Shown here in pieces: positions 6,676-62,501 of a DNA stretch of 64,000 bases. This DNA comes from Bradyrhizobium sp. C9 (GTDB lineage: Bacteria; Pseudomonadota; Alphaproteobacteria; Rhizobiales; Xanthobacteraceae), in assembly GCF_002532045.1 (NCBI RefSeq), contig NZ_NWTG01000001.1, forward strand, positions 930,001 through 994,000, in the 5' to 3' direction. The notes under the pieces were generated by a model. It worked only from the letters and a program-made list of their open reading frames with translations, ran no database searches and was not told the origin of the DNA. Position 1 is the first letter of the stretch. Every line of letters starts with the position of its first letter. The translations under genes and the position numbers were made by a program.

Positions 6676-9015
6676 ATGAGCACGAAGACGATTGGCAAGC
6701 AGAGGCCCTCAGGAGCTGAATACGCGTCGTTGCGAACGCAATTCTCCAGATACGATCGCACAACGTTTTCTGGATTTGTCTATGACCGCGCCGATCCGAC
6801 CCGACGCTACGCCGTCGAACTGCTGGTCGACGGCGAGCCATACATGTCATCATTGTGTGACGAGTTTGTAACAGAGCTTGCCGATGCCGGAATCGGCGAT
6901 GGTCGATTTGGTTTTACCTTCAACGTGCAGGACGAGGTCAGCTCGAACGCTGCGATCATCGAGGCAAGACTGGCAAATATCGGCAGTCCCGTCGGTGCTC
7001 CGATTCGCTGCGATGTCGCTGCACCGGAAGCGCAGTGGCACCGAATCGGCGAGATCAAATGGGCCGGAGGCTTGCGCTTCGAGGGCTGGCTCTCGCAGGA
7101 CATCGACGAAGACATCGAGATCCTGATCGCGCAACGGCCGGTGATGACCGTGAAGCCGACCGGGTGGACCAATGTCGCGCGGGGCAGTGAGTTCGGCGTC
7201 GGTCGCCGGATTGATTTTCATCTGCCCGAGCATTTTGCCGACGGTCGCGTGCGCGGGCTGTCCGCGCGGACCATTTCGGGACGGAGCCTGATCTCCGAGC
7301 CGGTCGCATTCGTCGCTTTCGAGCGCGGCCTGGAGCAGACCATCGCGGACCTCGGACGCTGGGATAGCGAACGGCTGCGCGGGCAATTGTTCGATCAGCT
7401 CCTGCCGGCCTCGGTGCCGTTTCACGCCTACCGCAGCTGGAAGGAGCGCTTCTCGCCGACAGCACCGTCCGATGTTCTGTCCGAGGCCGCAGTCGTTCTG
7501 ATCGGCGAGGCCAGGGTGGACGAGAGCATCGAGAGCCTGGAGGCCCAGCGGCACGCGGCGTGGTCGGCGGTGTGCCTGCCGGCGCGCGGGTTCAGTCAGT
7601 TCGATCCCGGCGCTGCGCGCGAGTTCGTCGACGGCGATGCCGCCAGCAGCGCGTTCTTCGTGTTCTGCCTGAGCGGCACGATCCTTGCGGAAGATGCCTT
7701 GCAGCGCTTCGCCGATGTGTTCGCGTCCGAGCCCGGCTGCGATCTCGTCTATGGCGATGTCGAGGTCACGGCCGGCGCCGGCGCGGTCTGGCCGCTGCTG
7801 TTCTCGGCATTCGATCTCGAGCGTGCGTTCGAGCAGGGCTATGGCGCGTATTGCTTTGCGGTGCGCCGGGAGCGTGCCGTGGAAGCGCTGCGATCGGCGG
7901 CGTCGCTCTACGACATCTTCATTGGCTGCGTGGAGCGCGAGCGAACCTATCATCTGCCGGGATCGGTTGCGGCGTTGCCGCGGATCGATGCGCCCGCCGC
8001 AACTGGCGAGCTGGTCGCCGCCAGCAAAGCGTATTTCGCCAGGACTGGCGTCGAGGCGAATGTCGAGCCGCGGAAAGCAGGGCTTCTTCCAGCCGTGCGG
8101 ATCAAGCGCGCGGTCGATTGGAACGAGCGGACCACCATCATCATTCCGACCAGAAACCGCGCCGAACTGCTCAAGCGCTGCATCGAGACGGTCCTGCCTG
8201 CCGCACATGAGACCAACGCCCGGATTCTCGTCGTCGACAACAGCTCGAGCGAGCCGGAAGCGCTGGACTATCTCGAGGGTCTCTCAGCGGACGAGATCGA
8301 CGTCATTTCGGTCGAGGGTCCCTTCAACTTCGCAGCCATCAACAACGCCGCGGTCGATTGCGTCGACACGGAGAATATCTGCTTCCTCAACAACGACATC
8401 CAGGCGCTCGACGACGGCTGGCTGGCGGAGATGCTGTGGCGGCTGTCCGCGCCCGATGTCGGAGCCGTCGGCGCAAAGCTGCTCTGGCCGAGCAGCGTCG
8501 TGCAGCATGGCGGGGTGGTGCTGGGGGCCAATTTCTCCGCCGCGCACGCCTTCAACGATCGGATGGATGGTGATCCCGGCTACGGCGATCTGCTCCAGGT
8601 GGCGCACGAATGTTCGGCGGTGACGGCCGCGTGCCTCTTGATGCGCAAGCGCGATTTCGTCGCCGTCGGCGGCATGGACGAGATCCGCTTTCCGATCAGT
8701 TTCAACGATATCGATCTGTGCCTGAAGCTGCGCCAGCTCGGAAAGCGGATCGTATTCACGCCGGACGCGAAACTCATTCATTTGGAATCGGCGAGCCGGG
8801 GCCGCGATTCCGCACCGGACCGCAAGGCCCGCTTCGGGCGCGAACTGGCGATGCTGCGCGCGAAGTGGGGCGAGGTGCTGCTCGATGATCCCTATTACAG
8901 CCCGCTGCTGGGGCTGGATTCGACGCCGTTCTCGTCGTTGGCATGGCCGCCGCGGTCATGGAAGCCGCGCGCCAACCTCAAGCCGGTGCCGACTGATCCT
9001 CCGATCGGGATGTAG
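6676..9015 (+). CDS. Large GT2 glycosyltransferase with a degenerate second GT-like region (779 aa)
   Basis: The C-terminal part (about residues 486-720) is a clear GT-A domain: TIIIPTRNRAELLKRC, LVVDNSS, FNFAAINNAA, FLNNDIQ as the DxD equivalent, then GGMDE and FNDIDLCLKLR. The middle (about 275-460) resembles a decayed copy of the same fold, with VYGDVEV near residue 358 where active homologues carry an acidic SDED-like metal site. The first 230 residues look like beta-rich non-catalytic domains. It probably acts on a surface polysaccharide. The ATG at 6676 is preferred to the GTG at 6670 because of GAGGGG upstream. Its last 60 bases overlap the convergent gene. Confidence 0.85.
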   Translation: MSTKTIGKQRPSGAEYASLRTQFSRYDRTTFSGFVYDRADPTRRYAVELLVDGEPYMSSLCDEFVTELADAGIGDGRFGFTFNVQDEVSSNAAIIEARLANIGSPVGAPIRCDVAAPEAQWHRIGEIKWAGGLRFEGWLSQDIDEDIEILIAQRPVMTVKPTGWTNVARGSEFGVGRRIDFHLPEHFADGRVRGLSARTISGRSLISEPVAFVAFERGLEQTIADLGRWDSERLRGQLFDQLLPASVPFHAYRSWKERFSPTAPSDVLSEAAVVLIGEARVDESIESLEAQRHAAWSAVCLPARGFSQFDPGAAREFVDGDAASSAFFVFCLSGTILAEDALQRFADVFASEPGCDLVYGDVEVTAGAGAVWPLLFSAFDLERAFEQGYGAYCFAVRRERAVEALRSAASLYDIFIGCVERERTYHLPGSVAALPRIDAPAATGELVAASKAYFARTGVEANVEPRKAGLLPAVRIKRAVDWNERTTIIIPTRNRAELLKRCIETVLPAAHETNARILVVDNSSSEPEALDYLEGLSADEIDVISVEGPFNFAAINNAAVDCVDTENICFLNNDIQALDDGWLAEMLWRLSAPDVGAVGAKLLWPSSVVQHGGVVLGANFSAAHAFNDRMDGDPGYGDLLQVAHECSAVTAACLLMRKRDFVAVGGMDEIRFPISFNDIDLCLKLRQLGKRIVFTPDAKLIHLESASRGRDSAPDRKARFGRELAMLRAKWGEVLLDDPYYSPLLGLDSTPFSSLAWPPRSWKPRANLKPVPTDPPIGM

Positions 9016-24298: not shown

Positions 24299-24420
24299 CG
24301 AGACCGGGCCGAGACCGGCCTATTTTCGGCGCTGCACTGGTTAGGACAGTCGCGGAAGGCAATCAGGATACCAAAGGAATCACAAGGGACATACTTCGAC
24401 CCAAGAAGCTTCCGCACACC

Positions 24421-58318: not shown

Positions 58319-58753
58319 TTACGCCGGCACGGCCTGCTTGTTCAACGCGGAGGTTTCCTCGTCGAACGCGGCCGCGATGTCGCGCATGCTGACGACGCCG
58401 ATCAAGCTGTAATTGTCGATCACGGGCACGTGGCGAATGTGGTGCTTGGTCATGAGATGACGGATGTGCTCGAGCGTGTCGCTCGAGGTGCACGACACCA
58501 ACTGCTGCACCGAGACCAGCTGCGACACCTTCATGCTGGCGCCGGCCGCGCCGTGCTCGGCAATCGCGCGCACCACGTCGCGCTCGGTGAACATGCCGAC
58601 GGCGGTGTTGCCCTCGGTGCGAACGACATCCTTGACCACCAGCGCGCTGATATTGCTGGCGCGCATCAATTGCGCGGCGATCGCCACCGTCTCGTTCATG
58701 CGAACCGTGGCAACGCGAGGGGTCTTCTTGCGCAGGATATCTCCGACTTGCAT
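58319..58753 (-). CDS. CBS-domain pair protein (144 aa)
   Basis: Two CBS motifs form one Bateman module: residues about 10-65 (VRMNETVAIAAQLMRASNISALVVKD, GMFTERDVVRAI) and 75-130 (TSSDTLEHIRHLMTKHHIRHVPVID, GVVSMRDIAAAF). These sense adenosine nucleotides. ATG 58753 has AAGGAGG eight bases upstream and is preferred over the longer frame. A 17-bp operator shared with the following transporter genes lies 33 bases upstream. Confidence 0.88.
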   Translation of the reverse strand: MQVGDILRKKTPRVATVRMNETVAIAAQLMRASNISALVVKDVVRTEGNTAVGMFTERDVVRAIAEHGAAGASMKVSQLVSVQQLVSCTSSDTLEHIRHLMTKHHIRHVPVIDNYSLIGVVSMRDIAAAFDEETSALNKQAVPA

Positions 58754-58785
58754 GGCAACCTCCTTGGTTATCGTTGGCAGGATTC

Positions 58786-58802
58786 TGGTATACAAAATGC
58801 CA
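58786..58802. promoter_or_regulatory. Shared dyad operator, copy 1 (CBS gene)
   Basis: TGGTATACAAAATGCCA, of the form TGGYAT-N5-ATRCCA, upstream of the CBS gene. Further copies lie at 60467, 61971 and 62370. Confidence 0.7.
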
Positions 58803-58953
58803 ATTGTCAACGTGGCCGTTGGAGAAATCTACCACCCTGAAACTGCCGAAATAGGCAGAGTCGCTGACGTTTCAGACGATTGTGACCTGGTGTGAGCGGG
58901 TAGGCCACCACACCCTCCGCGCGCCTCTGGCATCTGGCATCCCTGTTGGGCCA

Positions 58954-58982
58954 AACGAAAGAGGCGCACCGAAGTGCGCCTC
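58954..58982 (-). terminator. Terminator of the first MFS gene
   Basis: On the minus strand GAGGCGCAC, loop TTCG, GTGCGCCTC, then TTTCGTTT. It lies 79 bases after the MFS stop codon. Confidence 0.75.
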
Positions 58983-59012
58983 CATCAGCTCGGCAGGAAG
59001 TCCCGAAATCAG

Positions 59013-59064
59013 GCCGTCATTTCAGGCCGACATATCAAGCCGACATATCAAGCCGACATATCAA
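59013..59064. repeat. Tandem repeat, 13-bp unit, four copies
   Basis: Three exact copies of GCCGACATATCAA (59026, 59039, 59052) are preceded by a degraded one at 59013. The MFS stop codon (59061-59063 on the minus strand) lies inside the last copy, so the array starts at the very end of the gene. Confidence 0.85.
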
Positions 59065-60380
59065 GCCGTCTTGGCATTCGTTGCGGTCTCGGCTGCGGCG
59101 GCTGCAGCCTCGTTGCCGTTGATGAAGGCACGGCGCATCGGCTTGATCACGAACAGCGCCATCAGCGCCGCGGTGGCATTGAGCGCGACCGCGATCACGA
59201 ACACCGCCTGCCAGCCGTAGCTGGCGGCAACGATGCTGGCGGCCGGCACCAACAGCGCAGCGGTGCCCTTCGCGGTGTAGAGCATGCCGTTGTTGGTGGT
59301 CGCGAACTTCGAGCCGAACGTGTCGCCGGAGGTCGCCGGGAACAACGAGTAGATCTCGCCGAACACGCCGAAATAGACCGCGGTTGCCAGCACGAACACC
59401 AGCGGGTTGTGGCCCCAGGTCGACAGCGTCAGCAGCATCAGCGCGCCGGTGCCGAACGCGATGAACATGGTGTGCTCGCGGCCGATATTGTCGGAGACCC
59501 AGCCGAAGAACGGCCGACCGAAGCCGTCGAAGATGCGGTCGAGCGAGATCGCAAAGGTCAGCGCCGCCATCTGGAAGCCGGCGAGCGAGACCGGCGTGGT
59601 GGCGATCTTGTAGTCGTGCGCGATCGGCGCGATCTGCGCCGCCGCCATCAGGCCGCCGGAGGCGACCATCACGAACACCAGATACATCACCCAGAAGATC
59701 GGGCTGCGCAGCACCTGCGGCGGCGTGAAGTCGATCTTGGTCTGCGGCAGGTTGAGCTGCTTCTTCTTCGGCGGGATCGTCACCGCGGGCTTCTGGATGA
59801 AGAAGGCGAGCAGGAACACGATCAGGCCTTGTCCGATGCCGAAATCGAAGAACGCAGTCTGATAGCCGCTCGAGGCGATCATGTTGGCGATCGGCACCAC
59901 GGTCAGCGCCGCGCCGGCGCCGAAGCCCGCGGCGGTTGCGCCGGCGGCGAGGCCACGGCGATCGGGAAACCATTTCAGCGCATTGCCGACGCAGGTGCCG
60001 TACACCGAGCCGGCGCCGATGCCGCCGATCACAGCCGCGGCGTAGAGCAAAGTGAGTGAATCAGCGTAGGAGTTCAGCACCCAGGATAGCGTGATCATGA
60101 CGCCGCCGAACATGATGACGATCCGCGGGCCGTATTTGTCGACGAACCACGCTTCGACCGGCACCAGCCAGGTCTCCGTCACCACGAAGATCGTGAAAGC
60201 GAACTGGATCGCCGCGCGGCCCCAGTGATGCGCGCCGTCGATCGGATCGACGAACAGCGTCCAGCCGTATTGCAGGTTCGCGATCATCGCCATGCAGACG
60301 ATGCCCATCACGAGCTGAAGCCAGCGAAAGCCACTGGACGAAGGTTGTGCTTGTGTTACGGCAGCATTGCTGGAAACCAT
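59061..60380 (-). CDS. MFS transporter, oxalate:formate antiporter (OFA) family, paralogue 1
   Basis: A 439-aa protein with twelve predicted membrane helices and OFA-type signatures: IANLQYGWTLFVDPI, FTIFVVTETWLVPVEAWFVDKYGPR and YGTCVGNALKWFPDRRGLAAG. Members exchange oxalate for formate or carry related carboxylates. ATG 60380 has GGAGG 6-7 bases upstream. Closely similar to the next gene, with which it forms a duplicated pair, but each has its own operator and terminator. Confidence 0.88.
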   Translation of the reverse strand: MVSSNAAVTQAQPSSSGFRWLQLVMGIVCMAMIANLQYGWTLFVDPIDGAHHWGRAAIQFAFTIFVVTETWLVPVEAWFVDKYGPRIVIMFGGVMITLSWVLNSYADSLTLLYAAAVIGGIGAGSVYGTCVGNALKWFPDRRGLAAGATAAGFGAGAALTVVPIANMIASSGYQTAFFDFGIGQGLIVFLLAFFIQKPAVTIPPKKKQLNLPQTKIDFTPPQVLRSPIFWVMYLVFVMVASGGLMAAAQIAPIAHDYKIATTPVSLAGFQMAALTFAISLDRIFDGFGRPFFGWVSDNIGREHTMFIAFGTGALMLLTLSTWGHNPLVFVLATAVYFGVFGEIYSLFPATSGDTFGSKFATTNNGMLYTAKGTAALLVPAASIVAASYGWQAVFVIAVALNATAALMALFVIKPMRRAFINGNEAAAAAAETATNAKTA

Positions 60381-60466
60381 CAAATCCTCCCGAGCGCGCC
60401 TGGTCTTTGTTGTGACCCAGTGTCGCAATTCTTGTGGCGTATCGTCGCAAGCGCTTGGTCGGAGGT

Positions 60467-60483
60467 TGGTATACTATATTCCA
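60467..60483. promoter_or_regulatory. Shared dyad operator, copy 2 (MFS paralogue 1)
   Basis: TGGTATACTATATTCCA, 87 bases upstream of the MFS start, one mismatch in the right arm compared with the consensus. Confidence 0.7.
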
Positions 60484-60564
60484 GAAAGCAAGCCTATCTT
60501 TCTGCTGCGACGCAGCAAAACTGGCATACTTTGGGCTGATCGGGGCTCACGACGGGATGCCGGA

Positions 60565-60595
60565 AAATGAAAACGCCCGGCGTTGGCCGGGCGTT
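60565..60595 (-). terminator. Terminator of the second MFS gene
   Basis: On the minus strand AACGCCCGGC, loop CAAC, GCCGGGCGTT, then TTCATTTTCC, 25 bases after the MFS stop. Confidence 0.8.
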
Positions 60596-60620
60596 CGTCA
60601 GCAGATGAGCCGCGCGTTGC

Positions 60621-61916
60621 TTAAGCCATCGCCGCCGATTTCTCGACCACGATTTTCCGCCACGGTTTCAGCACGGCGATCGCGAGCAGCGAGGCAAGGA
60701 TGTTGGCGCCGGCTGCGATGATGAACACGTTGTCCCAATGGCCCGACGACTGCTGCATGTAGTTGGCGATCGGCACCAGCAGCGCTGCGGTGCCTTTCGC
60801 GGTGTAGAGCAGGCCGGCATTCGTGGTCGCGAATTTGGCGCCGAAGGTGTCGGTGCAGGTCGAGGGGAACAGCGAATAGATCTCGCCCCAGGCAAAGAAC
60901 ACGAAGCCCGAGAGCAGCACGAACCACACCGGGTCGTGGCCCCAGAGGTAGAGCATCCAGATGCCGAAGCCTTCCATGCCAAAGGCGATGAACATCGTGT
61001 TCTCGCGGCCGATCATGTCGGAGATCCAGCCGAAGAACGGACGCGTCAGACCGTTGAGGACGCGGTCGATGGTCGCCGCGAAGGTCACCGCCGTCATCGT
61101 CACCGCCATCAGCGTGACCGGCACGCTGTCGACCTTCCAGTCGACCGCGATCGGCTTCAGGTTCGCCGTCACCATCAGGCCGCCGGCACCGACGATCACG
61201 AACATGAAGTACATCAGCCAGAAGATCGGCTGCCGCAGCACTTCGGTCGGCTGATAATTACGCCGGGTCTGGATGATGTTGGCATTCGCCACGACGGCCG
61301 GCACCTGTCCAGCCTTCGGCGCGAGCAGGAAGAAGGCGAGCAGCACGATGATGATGCCCTGGCCGAGACCGAAATACAGGAAGGTGGTCTGGAAGCCGGA
61401 GTCCTTGATCATCGCCTGGATCGGCGCGACCGTGAGTGCGGAGCCTGCGCCGAAGCCGGCTGCGGTGATGCCCGCCGCAAGCCCGCGCTTGTCGGGAAAC
61501 CATTTCAGCGCGTTGCCGACGCAGGTGCCATAGACGCCGCCGGCGCCGATGCCGGCGATGATCATGCCGAGATAGTAGCCGTTCAGCGAGGTCGCCTGCG
61601 CGTTGATCGCCCACCCGATCGCGCAGAGGATGCCGCCGATCAGCACGACGAGGCGCGGACCGTATTTATCGACGAACCAGCCTTCGACCGGCACCAGCCA
61701 GGTCTCGAACAGCACAAACAGCGTGAAGGCCCACTGGATCGATGCGCGATCCCATCCAAACTTCTTCTGGATGTCGGGGACGAAGAACGTCCACCCGTAT
61801 TGATAGTTTGCGATCATCACCATCGCGGCGACGCCGATCGCAAGTTGCGTCCAGCGATAGGTATCGCTGACACGCGCGGCCGCGGGGGCCGCTGTTGCCT
61901 GAACCATGTCCGACAT
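60621..61916 (-). CDS. MFS transporter, oxalate:formate antiporter (OFA) family, paralogue 2
   Basis: A 431-aa OFA carrier with the same signatures as paralogue 1: MIANYQYGWTFFVPDI, FTLFVLFETWLVPVEGWFVDKYGPR and YGTCVGNALKWFPDKRGLAAG, and twelve membrane helices. ATG 61916 with GGAGG upstream is chosen; the open frame begins nine codons earlier. The operator copy lies 55 bases in front. Substrate probably oxalate, formate or a similar small acid, by family only. Confidence 0.88.
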   Translation of the reverse strand: MSDMVQATAAPAAARVSDTYRWTQLAIGVAAMVMIANYQYGWTFFVPDIQKKFGWDRASIQWAFTLFVLFETWLVPVEGWFVDKYGPRLVVLIGGILCAIGWAINAQATSLNGYYLGMIIAGIGAGGVYGTCVGNALKWFPDKRGLAAGITAAGFGAGSALTVAPIQAMIKDSGFQTTFLYFGLGQGIIIVLLAFFLLAPKAGQVPAVVANANIIQTRRNYQPTEVLRQPIFWLMYFMFVIVGAGGLMVTANLKPIAVDWKVDSVPVTLMAVTMTAVTFAATIDRVLNGLTRPFFGWISDMIGRENTMFIAFGMEGFGIWMLYLWGHDPVWFVLLSGFVFFAWGEIYSLFPSTCTDTFGAKFATTNAGLLYTAKGTAALLVPIANYMQQSSGHWDNVFIIAAGANILASLLAIAVLKPWRKIVVEKSAAMA

Positions 61917-61970
61917 TGATCCTCCCAGTGCGCGCTTTGTCATTCTGCTTGTGGCGCGGCTCAGTCATCT

Positions 61971-61987
61971 TGGTATTTGATATGCCA
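61971..61987. promoter_or_regulatory. Shared dyad operator, copy 3 (MFS paralogue 2)
   Basis: TGGTATTTGATATGCCA, a perfect TGGTAT-N5-ATGCCA match, 55 bases before the MFS start. Confidence 0.7.
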
Positions 61988-62071
61988 AGGTTCAAGCTGT
62001 CGCAGAGGTCGCGTGCGCATATGCCGCAGAGCACTGAAGGCGGTCACCGCAGCGAGAGTAATTCAGCGCGC

Positions 62072-62103
62072 AAAAAAATGGCCCCGAAAATCGGGGCCAT
62101 TGG
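62072..62103 (-). terminator. Terminator of the 45-aa gene
   Basis: On the minus strand ATGGCCCCGA, loop TTT, TCGGGGCCAT, then TTTTTT. A strong intrinsic terminator 72 bases after the small gene's stop. Confidence 0.9.
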
Positions 62104-62172
62104 TTGAAGGTTCAATGTCAGGTCGCATCTGGCGCCGAACGTCTCGGTGCAGCGCGCGAGGAATCGCAGGCC

Positions 62173-62310
62173 TCAGAGGCCGAAGCGCGGCAGGTCGCCA
62201 TTGCGGTTGGAGATCTCCGCGCTCTTCATCAGCAGGCGGTCGATCGTGGCCATCAGGCGGCCGAACAGGGTGGAGGAGGGCGCGAGCGTGAGTGCGGTGG
62301 TCTTGGACAT
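62173..62310 (-). CDS. Small protein (45 aa) with the same operator as the OFA carriers
   Basis: MSKTTALTLAPSSTLFGRLM starts a 45-aa protein that continues ATIDRLLMKSAEISNRNGDLPRFGL, with a central amphipathic helix and no membrane segment. AAGGGG stands seven bases before the ATG, an intrinsic terminator follows, and an operator copy lies 60 bases upstream, so it forms a complete transcription unit. No domain recognised. Co-control suggests a role with the neighbouring carriers or oxalate/formate metabolism. Confidence 0.7.
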   Translation of the reverse strand: MSKTTALTLAPSSTLFGRLMATIDRLLMKSAEISNRNGDLPRFGL

Positions 62311-62369
62311 TGGTGTCCCCTTTGGCTGCAGGGCCAGCAACGGGCCGGCTCATCATCTGCAGTCAAATT

Positions 62370-62386
62370 ATGTATACCAGATGCCA
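62370..62386. promoter_or_regulatory. Shared dyad operator, copy 4 (45-aa gene)
   Basis: ATGTATACCAGATGCCA; the right half ATGCCA is perfect and the left half ATGTAT differs at two positions from TGGTAT. Confidence 0.6.
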
Positions 62387-62501
62387 GAGACAACGAGTTT
62401 GTTTGCATAGCAGCATGGACGATGGTGCAATGCAGCAAGATGGGCCGGTTGGCATCCCAGACCGGTGCAAAGAGGCAGGCGGAACCGACAGGGCCTGTGG
62501 G

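Follow-up and report, generated by a model that had tools for sequence, protein, structure and literature searches.

Which regulator, if any, recognizes a 17-bp inverted repeat that recurs in front of four genes of Bradyrhizobium sp. C9, and what would those genes have in common? The stretch of DNA that raises this question, hereafter the window, comprises 64,000 nucleotides (G000:C11:930001-994000; positions below are those of the window unless a contig or locus is named) of an 8.43 Mb genome, and the four genes encode a CBS-domain protein (CBS1), two oxalate/formate-type major facilitator superfamily (MFS) carriers (OFA1 and OFA2) and a 45-aa protein (sORF45). A sequence-only reading had noticed the pattern TGGYAT-N5-ATRCCA upstream of all four and proposed a single dimeric repressor, plausibly of the GntR/FCD class and encoded elsewhere. 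Here, we describe a candidate for this repressor, linked to the oxalate genes oxc and frc, and a set of predicted targets that extends well past the window.

A candidate regulator beyond the window

The candidate is encoded at C11:1004875-1005606, about 12.5 kb past the last window site and about 11 kb past the window itself. Its 243-aa product carries a GntR winged-helix domain (PF00392, 47.8 bits, cutoff 27) and an FCD domain (PF07729, 78 bits, cutoff 24.3), as in the FadR (FCD) subfamily of GntR regulators. Immediately downstream on the same strand are oxc (TIGR03254, 1028.5 bits, cutoff 739.4) and frc (TIGR03253, 755.4 bits, cutoff 504.2), in what appears to be an operon headed by the GntR gene, and the gap between this gene and a divergent gene for an ADP-forming acyl-CoA ligase contains two exact dyads about 81 bp apart. 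A probable regulator of the proposed class is thus encoded outside the window, and the sites that had been predicted ahead of frc/oxc and of a GntR gene are found just upstream of GntR-oxc-frc.

This arrangement is conserved in our genus comparison set of 36 genomes. Orthologues of the GntR protein that are at least 91% identical occur in 35 of them, the exception being a genome that is 80% complete, and exact dyads lie upstream of the GntR gene at all 35 distinct genus loci, as a pair 81–82 bp apart at 33. The closest named records, whose GntR proteins are 92–94% identical, are from Bradyrhizobium. None of the 18 NCBIfam families of named GntR equivalogs listed, which include PhnR, NanR, CsiR, LldR and GlcC, reaches its cutoff with this protein; the best is TIGR03338, at 96.8 bits against 271.5. 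An AlphaFold model (mean predicted local distance difference test score, pLDDT, 82) finds its best matches among solved FCD-GntR structures, such as 7u5q, Atu1419/VanR, PmiR and TM0439. H160, H204, H226 and N156 are invariant in 15 aligned relatives; the histidines would be the metal ligands of the FCD pocket, with N156 where an Asp is usual.

The dyad across the genome and the genus

The dyad does not behave as a motif of random sites. Exact matches number 8 in the C9 genome, against 1 for a reversed-pattern control; in the 36 genus genomes together, the two totals are 213 and 9. Seven of the eight lie at CBS1, OFA2, the GntR/ligase gap (two), sucC, the gap between a second CBS gene (CBS2) and an IclR gene, and a gamma-glutamyltranspeptidase gene; the eighth falls within an open frame. 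All 69 exact sites of nine genomes were also listed and assigned by hand, which placed 58 at genes of the predicted regulon. Three of these, at receptor genes of TctC-TctB-TctA (TTT) transporters, are weaker assignments, two of them made through identity of the site to those in strains that were read. The other 11 comprise three sites in open frames, three whose letters and setting are those expected for the C3 coding site, three that were not fetched and two without a known gene.

To score conservation at individual promoters, we took the best site within 250 bp upstream of each gene and counted distinct promoters. Exact sites precede CBS1 in 28 of 30 promoters (a row at distance 177, L192, probably shows a different site), sucC in 28 of 30, CBS2 in 4 of 4 and IclR in 4 of 7. 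One sucC row from G015 (L150) lacks a site, and the second sucC copy of that genome has one upstream. OFA2 has an exact site in 10 of 16 promoters and a one-mismatch site in the remaining 6. The identical one-mismatch site precedes OFA1 in 13 of 13 usable rows out of 17; the other 4, at locus ends and a distance of about 1925, really show the CBS1 site. For sORF45 the same degenerate site appears in 17 of 18 promoters, with L116 as the exception. No site with up to two mismatches was found within 250 bp upstream of any of ten control genes: oxc (0/32), frc (0/21), mdh (0/30), sucD (0/30), DUF1579 (0/30), FAAH (0/17), panE2 (0/12), NMO (0/12), QOR (0/13) and gcl (0/4). Of these, only mdh, NMO, QOR and gcl likely own a promoter, because several of the others sit inside operons.

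In the aligned promoters, the dyad arms hold 1.90–1.97 bits per position, compared with 0.67–1.09 in the flanks, and the dyad begins downstream of the start of a TTG box, by 8 bp at CBS1, OFA1 and OFA2, 7 at sORF45 and 12 at sucC. The center, which the sequence-only reading had treated as a free N5, carries information too. Oriented to the better strand, 11 sites of the C9 genome fit RCCAW at 48 of 55 positions, while random centers treated alike reach a mean of 26.4 and a maximum of 37 (5000 trials). Sites assigned to the regulon score 3–5 of 5 and seven exact "chance" sites, hand-picked, with five inside open frames and two not fetched, score 0–2; the mark is imperfect, as 4 of 15 other distinct one-mismatch sites in the genome score 3–4. 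The predicted operator is better written as TGGYATRCCAWATRCCA, a 10-bp palindrome with a third half-site, whose center is relaxed at CBS1, OFA1 and OFA2. A sigma-54 or FNR/FixK-type box was rejected, since by eye both spacing and sequence misfit the consensus.

The four window sites and their genes

Allowing one mismatch, TGGYAT-N5-ATRCCA matches the window three times, compared with a mean of 0.25 and a largest value of 2 in 100 shuffles. The claim that the dyad precedes all four genes stands in its strict form for two of them, with exact copies at the predicted operators of CBS1 (58786..58802, TGGTATACAAAATGCCA, 32 bp from the start) and OFA2 (61971..61987, TGGTATTTGATATGCCA, 54 bp); the predicted OFA1 operator (60467..60483, TGGTATACTATATTCCA, 86 bp) has one mismatch and the predicted sORF45 operator (62370..62386, ATGTATACCAGATGCCA, 59 bp) is degenerate, with two. 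These distances agree within one base with the 33–87 claimed. The original pattern is too strict for site 62370, and two-mismatch dyads also occur elsewhere in the window, at 24357, 27246, 36657 and 58928. We accept this site nonetheless because it is conserved at sORF45 promoters across the genus, where 17 of 18 distinct promoters carry TGGYATCTGGYATACNT 53–63 bp ahead of the 45-codon gene. A block farther upstream than this operator, at 62400-62416 (ATGCTGCTATGCAAACA, minus strand), is, like the operator, almost invariant in 17 aligned genus promoters and may be the site of another regulator.

All four genes are on the minus strand: CBS1 (58319..58753, 144 aa, PF00571), OFA1 (59061..60380; TIGR04259, 646.5 bits, cutoff 335), OFA2 (60621..61916; TIGR04259, 648.7 bits, same cutoff) and sORF45 (62173..62310), which has no family match and whose relatives are 57–100% identical. 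A candidate CBS1 promoter on the same strand, TTGACA-N17-CAGAAT (58782..58810), holds the dyad within its spacer, extending to the -10 box. The match to the promoter consensus is by itself no better than chance (1 match against a shuffle mean of 1.1); TTGAC is kept 8 bp ahead of the CBS1 dyad in the genus promoters. Terminator-like hairpins with T-runs, also on the minus strand, follow OFA1 (58960..58983), OFA2 (60571..60596) and sORF45 (62077..62101), and a search for the same 3' of CBS1 found none. Candidate terminators thus accompany three units, as claimed. Single-gene transcription, claimed for all four, does not hold generally: in other strains CBS1 is closely trailed by a PanE-like reductase.

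The slot behind CBS1 holds panE2, mostly with FAAH, or another PanE-like gene. In some strains a second, distant PanE-like protein (a weak ApbA match; L021:6927-7991 and L354:4105-6456) replaces panE2 there. In G012 this distant gene occurs twice, and an exact dyad belongs to the second copy.

Other predicted members of the regulon

The regulon had been described as one of oxalate/formate carriers. Both OFA genes fit that description, and the predicted set is wider, taking in sucC, the acyl-CoA ligase, formate dehydrogenase and PanE-like reductases. A second cluster surrounds the CBS2/IclR gap, where an exact dyad has a one-mismatch site beside it. One side of the gap carries CBS2, a PanE-like reductase, an FAA hydrolase, a third OFA, a glycerate-kinase-like gene and a pyruvate kinase; the other carries IclR, gcl, hyi and glxR. 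A second PanE-like gene, on C33, has a one-mismatch site upstream.

Formate oxidation would be reached through a fused NuoE/NuoF-like subunit, which has an exact site in 17 of 28 genus genomes, a one-mismatch site in 5 and a two-mismatch site in 6. At L349 this subunit is followed by a formate-dehydrogenase-type alpha subunit (TIGR01591, 597.5 bits for a partial piece, cutoff 666.25); outside the genus, the NuoE/NuoF-like gene has an exact site in one genome and none in a second. Several strains (L116, L121, L132) carry a TTT operon with a dyad about 280–310 bp ahead of it. In G006 (L121) the operon lies at a locus whose 20 kb, as read, yielded no OFA gene. A different TctC gene (L361:4058) has an exact dyad near its start. 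The gamma-glutamyltranspeptidase gene (L018:6302-7984; exact dyad at 8079), at most a tentative member, is followed by an MHS-type carrier, and its dyad is kept in G004 and G010. A gene that by eye resembles sdhC (succinate dehydrogenase) has a one-mismatch dyad (TTGCATGCGGTATACCA; L024:4640) 161 bp ahead of it; if the site is real, this gene would be a second tricarboxylic acid (TCA)-cycle target.

Sites beside GntR relatives outside the genus

Outside the genus, dyad counts per genome are a weak test: families without the GntR have 0–3, and G046, which belongs to a different family of the order and has no GntR relative at our cutoff, contains 8 exact dyads whose centers are mixed. We therefore used position relative to the GntR gene instead. 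In an order-wide set of 249 genomes, with GntR relatives called at E<=1e-30 and oxc at E<=1e-150, a relative is present in 70. Oxc was found only alongside a GntR relative, in 48 of the 64 tested genomes that have one and in 0 of 175 (out of 179) that lack one; G000 served as the positive control in two of the three search sets, the third having none. In some of the 16 GntR-bearing genomes without oxc, its position is taken by a divergent oxc-like enzyme. At L097, L099, L241, L246, L256, L287, L288, L291, L293 and L301, the oxc slot holds a divergent thiamine diphosphate (ThDP)-type protein about 25–26% identical to oxc, mostly with frc adjacent, which is possibly a second kind of oxalyl-CoA enzyme.

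For the site test, relatives of at least 85% identity (taken as genus) or below 40% were left out, about 445 bp were searched for a site with no more than one mismatch, and "oxc/frc-linked" meant within 2.5 kb of oxc or frc. Among the oxc/frc-linked relatives, 43 of 59 have a site, compared with 46 of 17000 shuffled regions. Four loci in other families likewise have a site ahead of a sucC-type gene.

Discussion

The inference drawn from four sites is well supported as right in kind. In our view, the dyads probably serve as operators of a single oxalate regulon under the oxc-linked GntR/FCD repressor, which would be released by oxalate or a near product. Its parts are not equally firm: that this protein binds the dyads is very likely, that it acts by repression rather than activation is likely, and oxalate itself has about an even chance of being the inducer. 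A GntR dimer would bind TGGYATRCCAWATRCCA-type sites. The window operators begin 7–8 bp past the start of the TTG (-35) box and would occupy the spacer; with the -35/-10 spacer filled, RNA polymerase should be blocked. A dimer in this spacer is a classical repressor arrangement. Oxalate, or oxalyl-CoA or glyoxylate as a near product, would then bind the FCD domain and cause GntR to leave the DNA, with oxalate, a chelating dicarboxylate, as the simplest candidate. Derepression would permit import by the OFA carriers and, in some strains, the TTT transporter; activation with CoA via frc, the ligase and sucC; decarboxylation by oxc; in many strains, oxidation of formate by formate dehydrogenase; and, through PanE-like enzymes, reduction to glyoxylate.

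Several observations weigh against this account. The CBS2 site (156 bp upstream of the gene) and the TTT sites (about 280–310 bp) are farther away than a spacer operator would sit, which for TTT points to a leader of some length or to a start called in the wrong place, and the formate dehydrogenase of the C9 genome has a two-mismatch site only. Outside the genus, no site with up to one mismatch was found for 16 of the 59 oxc/frc-linked relatives, 1 of 11 relatives that adjoin sucCD/panE2/FAAH alone has one, and three named beta-proteobacterial relatives have only sites with two to three mismatches. Relatives near none of these genes have a site in 7 of 15, which shows that the site tracks GntR but does not tie every target to oxalate.

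The same distant sites would suit a reading in which this GntR, bound at the dyads, activates its targets or plays a dual role and oxalate serves as co-activator. We regard this as unlikely: the window and sucC dyads begin 7–12 bp after the TTG start, inside the spacer, which suits polymerase exclusion. Still less probable is that the dyads are bound by some other regulator, such as a different GntR or the gcl-cluster IclR, with the oxc-linked GntR simply a neighbor. The C9 genome does contain 18 GntR-type matches to the GntR query, an IclR gene adjoins the CBS2 site pair, and several strains have further IclR copies behind the ligase; the site, however, accompanies the oxc-linked GntR into other families and into loci with no annotated IclR nearby, and gcl has no site. 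Finally, the adjoining conserved TTG box and the relatedness of the genus promoters could make the dyad a core-promoter element or the inherited likeness of recent promoter copies, an idea that is hardly credible given arms much better conserved than their flanks, a TTG offset of 12 at sucC rather than 7–8, control promoters (mdh, NMO, QOR) without a dyad, and exact sites clustered at one pathway.

The oxc-linked GntR repressor that we favor has partial counterparts among known systems. Many sites here contain a TGGYATRCCA palindrome that resembles the FadR-type box of PMC4494728. Set beside the GTM-N0-1-KAC operator type given there, many sites show GTATAC or a GCAT/ATGC variant; OFA2 has neither, and it is the outer 17-bp dyad that is conserved. 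Unlike the short FadR-type palindrome, the conserved unit here is the 17-bp dyad with its third half-site. Small molecules, carboxylic acids among them, serve as ligands of FadR-subfamily regulators (PMC4494728). NanR of E. coli is a GntR/FCD repressor, and its (GGTATA)3 repeats (PMC8012715) resemble the TGGTAT half-sites. NanR differs, however, in its direct repeats and sialic acid, where we find inverted outer arms and oxalate genes, and the GntR protein here scores 64.7 against a cutoff of 260 for the NanR family NF003011.

Going by locus numbers, which adjoin bll3157 (oxc), blr3159 may be the ligase and bll3158 the GntR gene. In PMC6759348, blr3159 and the oxalate:formate antiporter gene bll3150 are both down 2.02-fold in a nasT mutant, a weak hint. 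The enzymes (Frc, Oxc, PanE) are those of oxalate catabolism in B. diazoefficiens and Methylobacterium. On arabinose, B. diazoefficiens contains more Frc, Oxc, Gcl and Hyi (PMC5996035); nodules, where oxalate is present, express Frc and Oxc (PMC4926349); the PanE enzyme of Methylobacterium extorquens acts as an oxalyl-CoA reductase (PMC9485241); and Bradyrhizobium can grow on oxalate (PMC12981067). Because gcl has no site here, the rise on arabinose cannot be attributed wholly to GntR. In the open-licence literature, as far as its texts were available, our search returned no description of this GntR and no regulator or operator named for the Frc/Oxc/PanE genes.

The analysis yields a candidate regulator of the oxalate pathway, its predicted operator and a list of predicted targets. 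More tentatively, and with somewhat less than even confidence, we suggest that the GntR captured parts of core metabolism, with oxalate derepressing sucC and formate dehydrogenase so that CoA would be recharged and formate burned for NADH, the TTT transporter acting as an oxalate importer, the second PanE-like protein as an oxalyl-CoA reductase, and sORF45 and the CBS protein as parts of oxalate use. The 45-aa protein and the CBS protein, both uncharacterized, would in this way gain an oxalate context.

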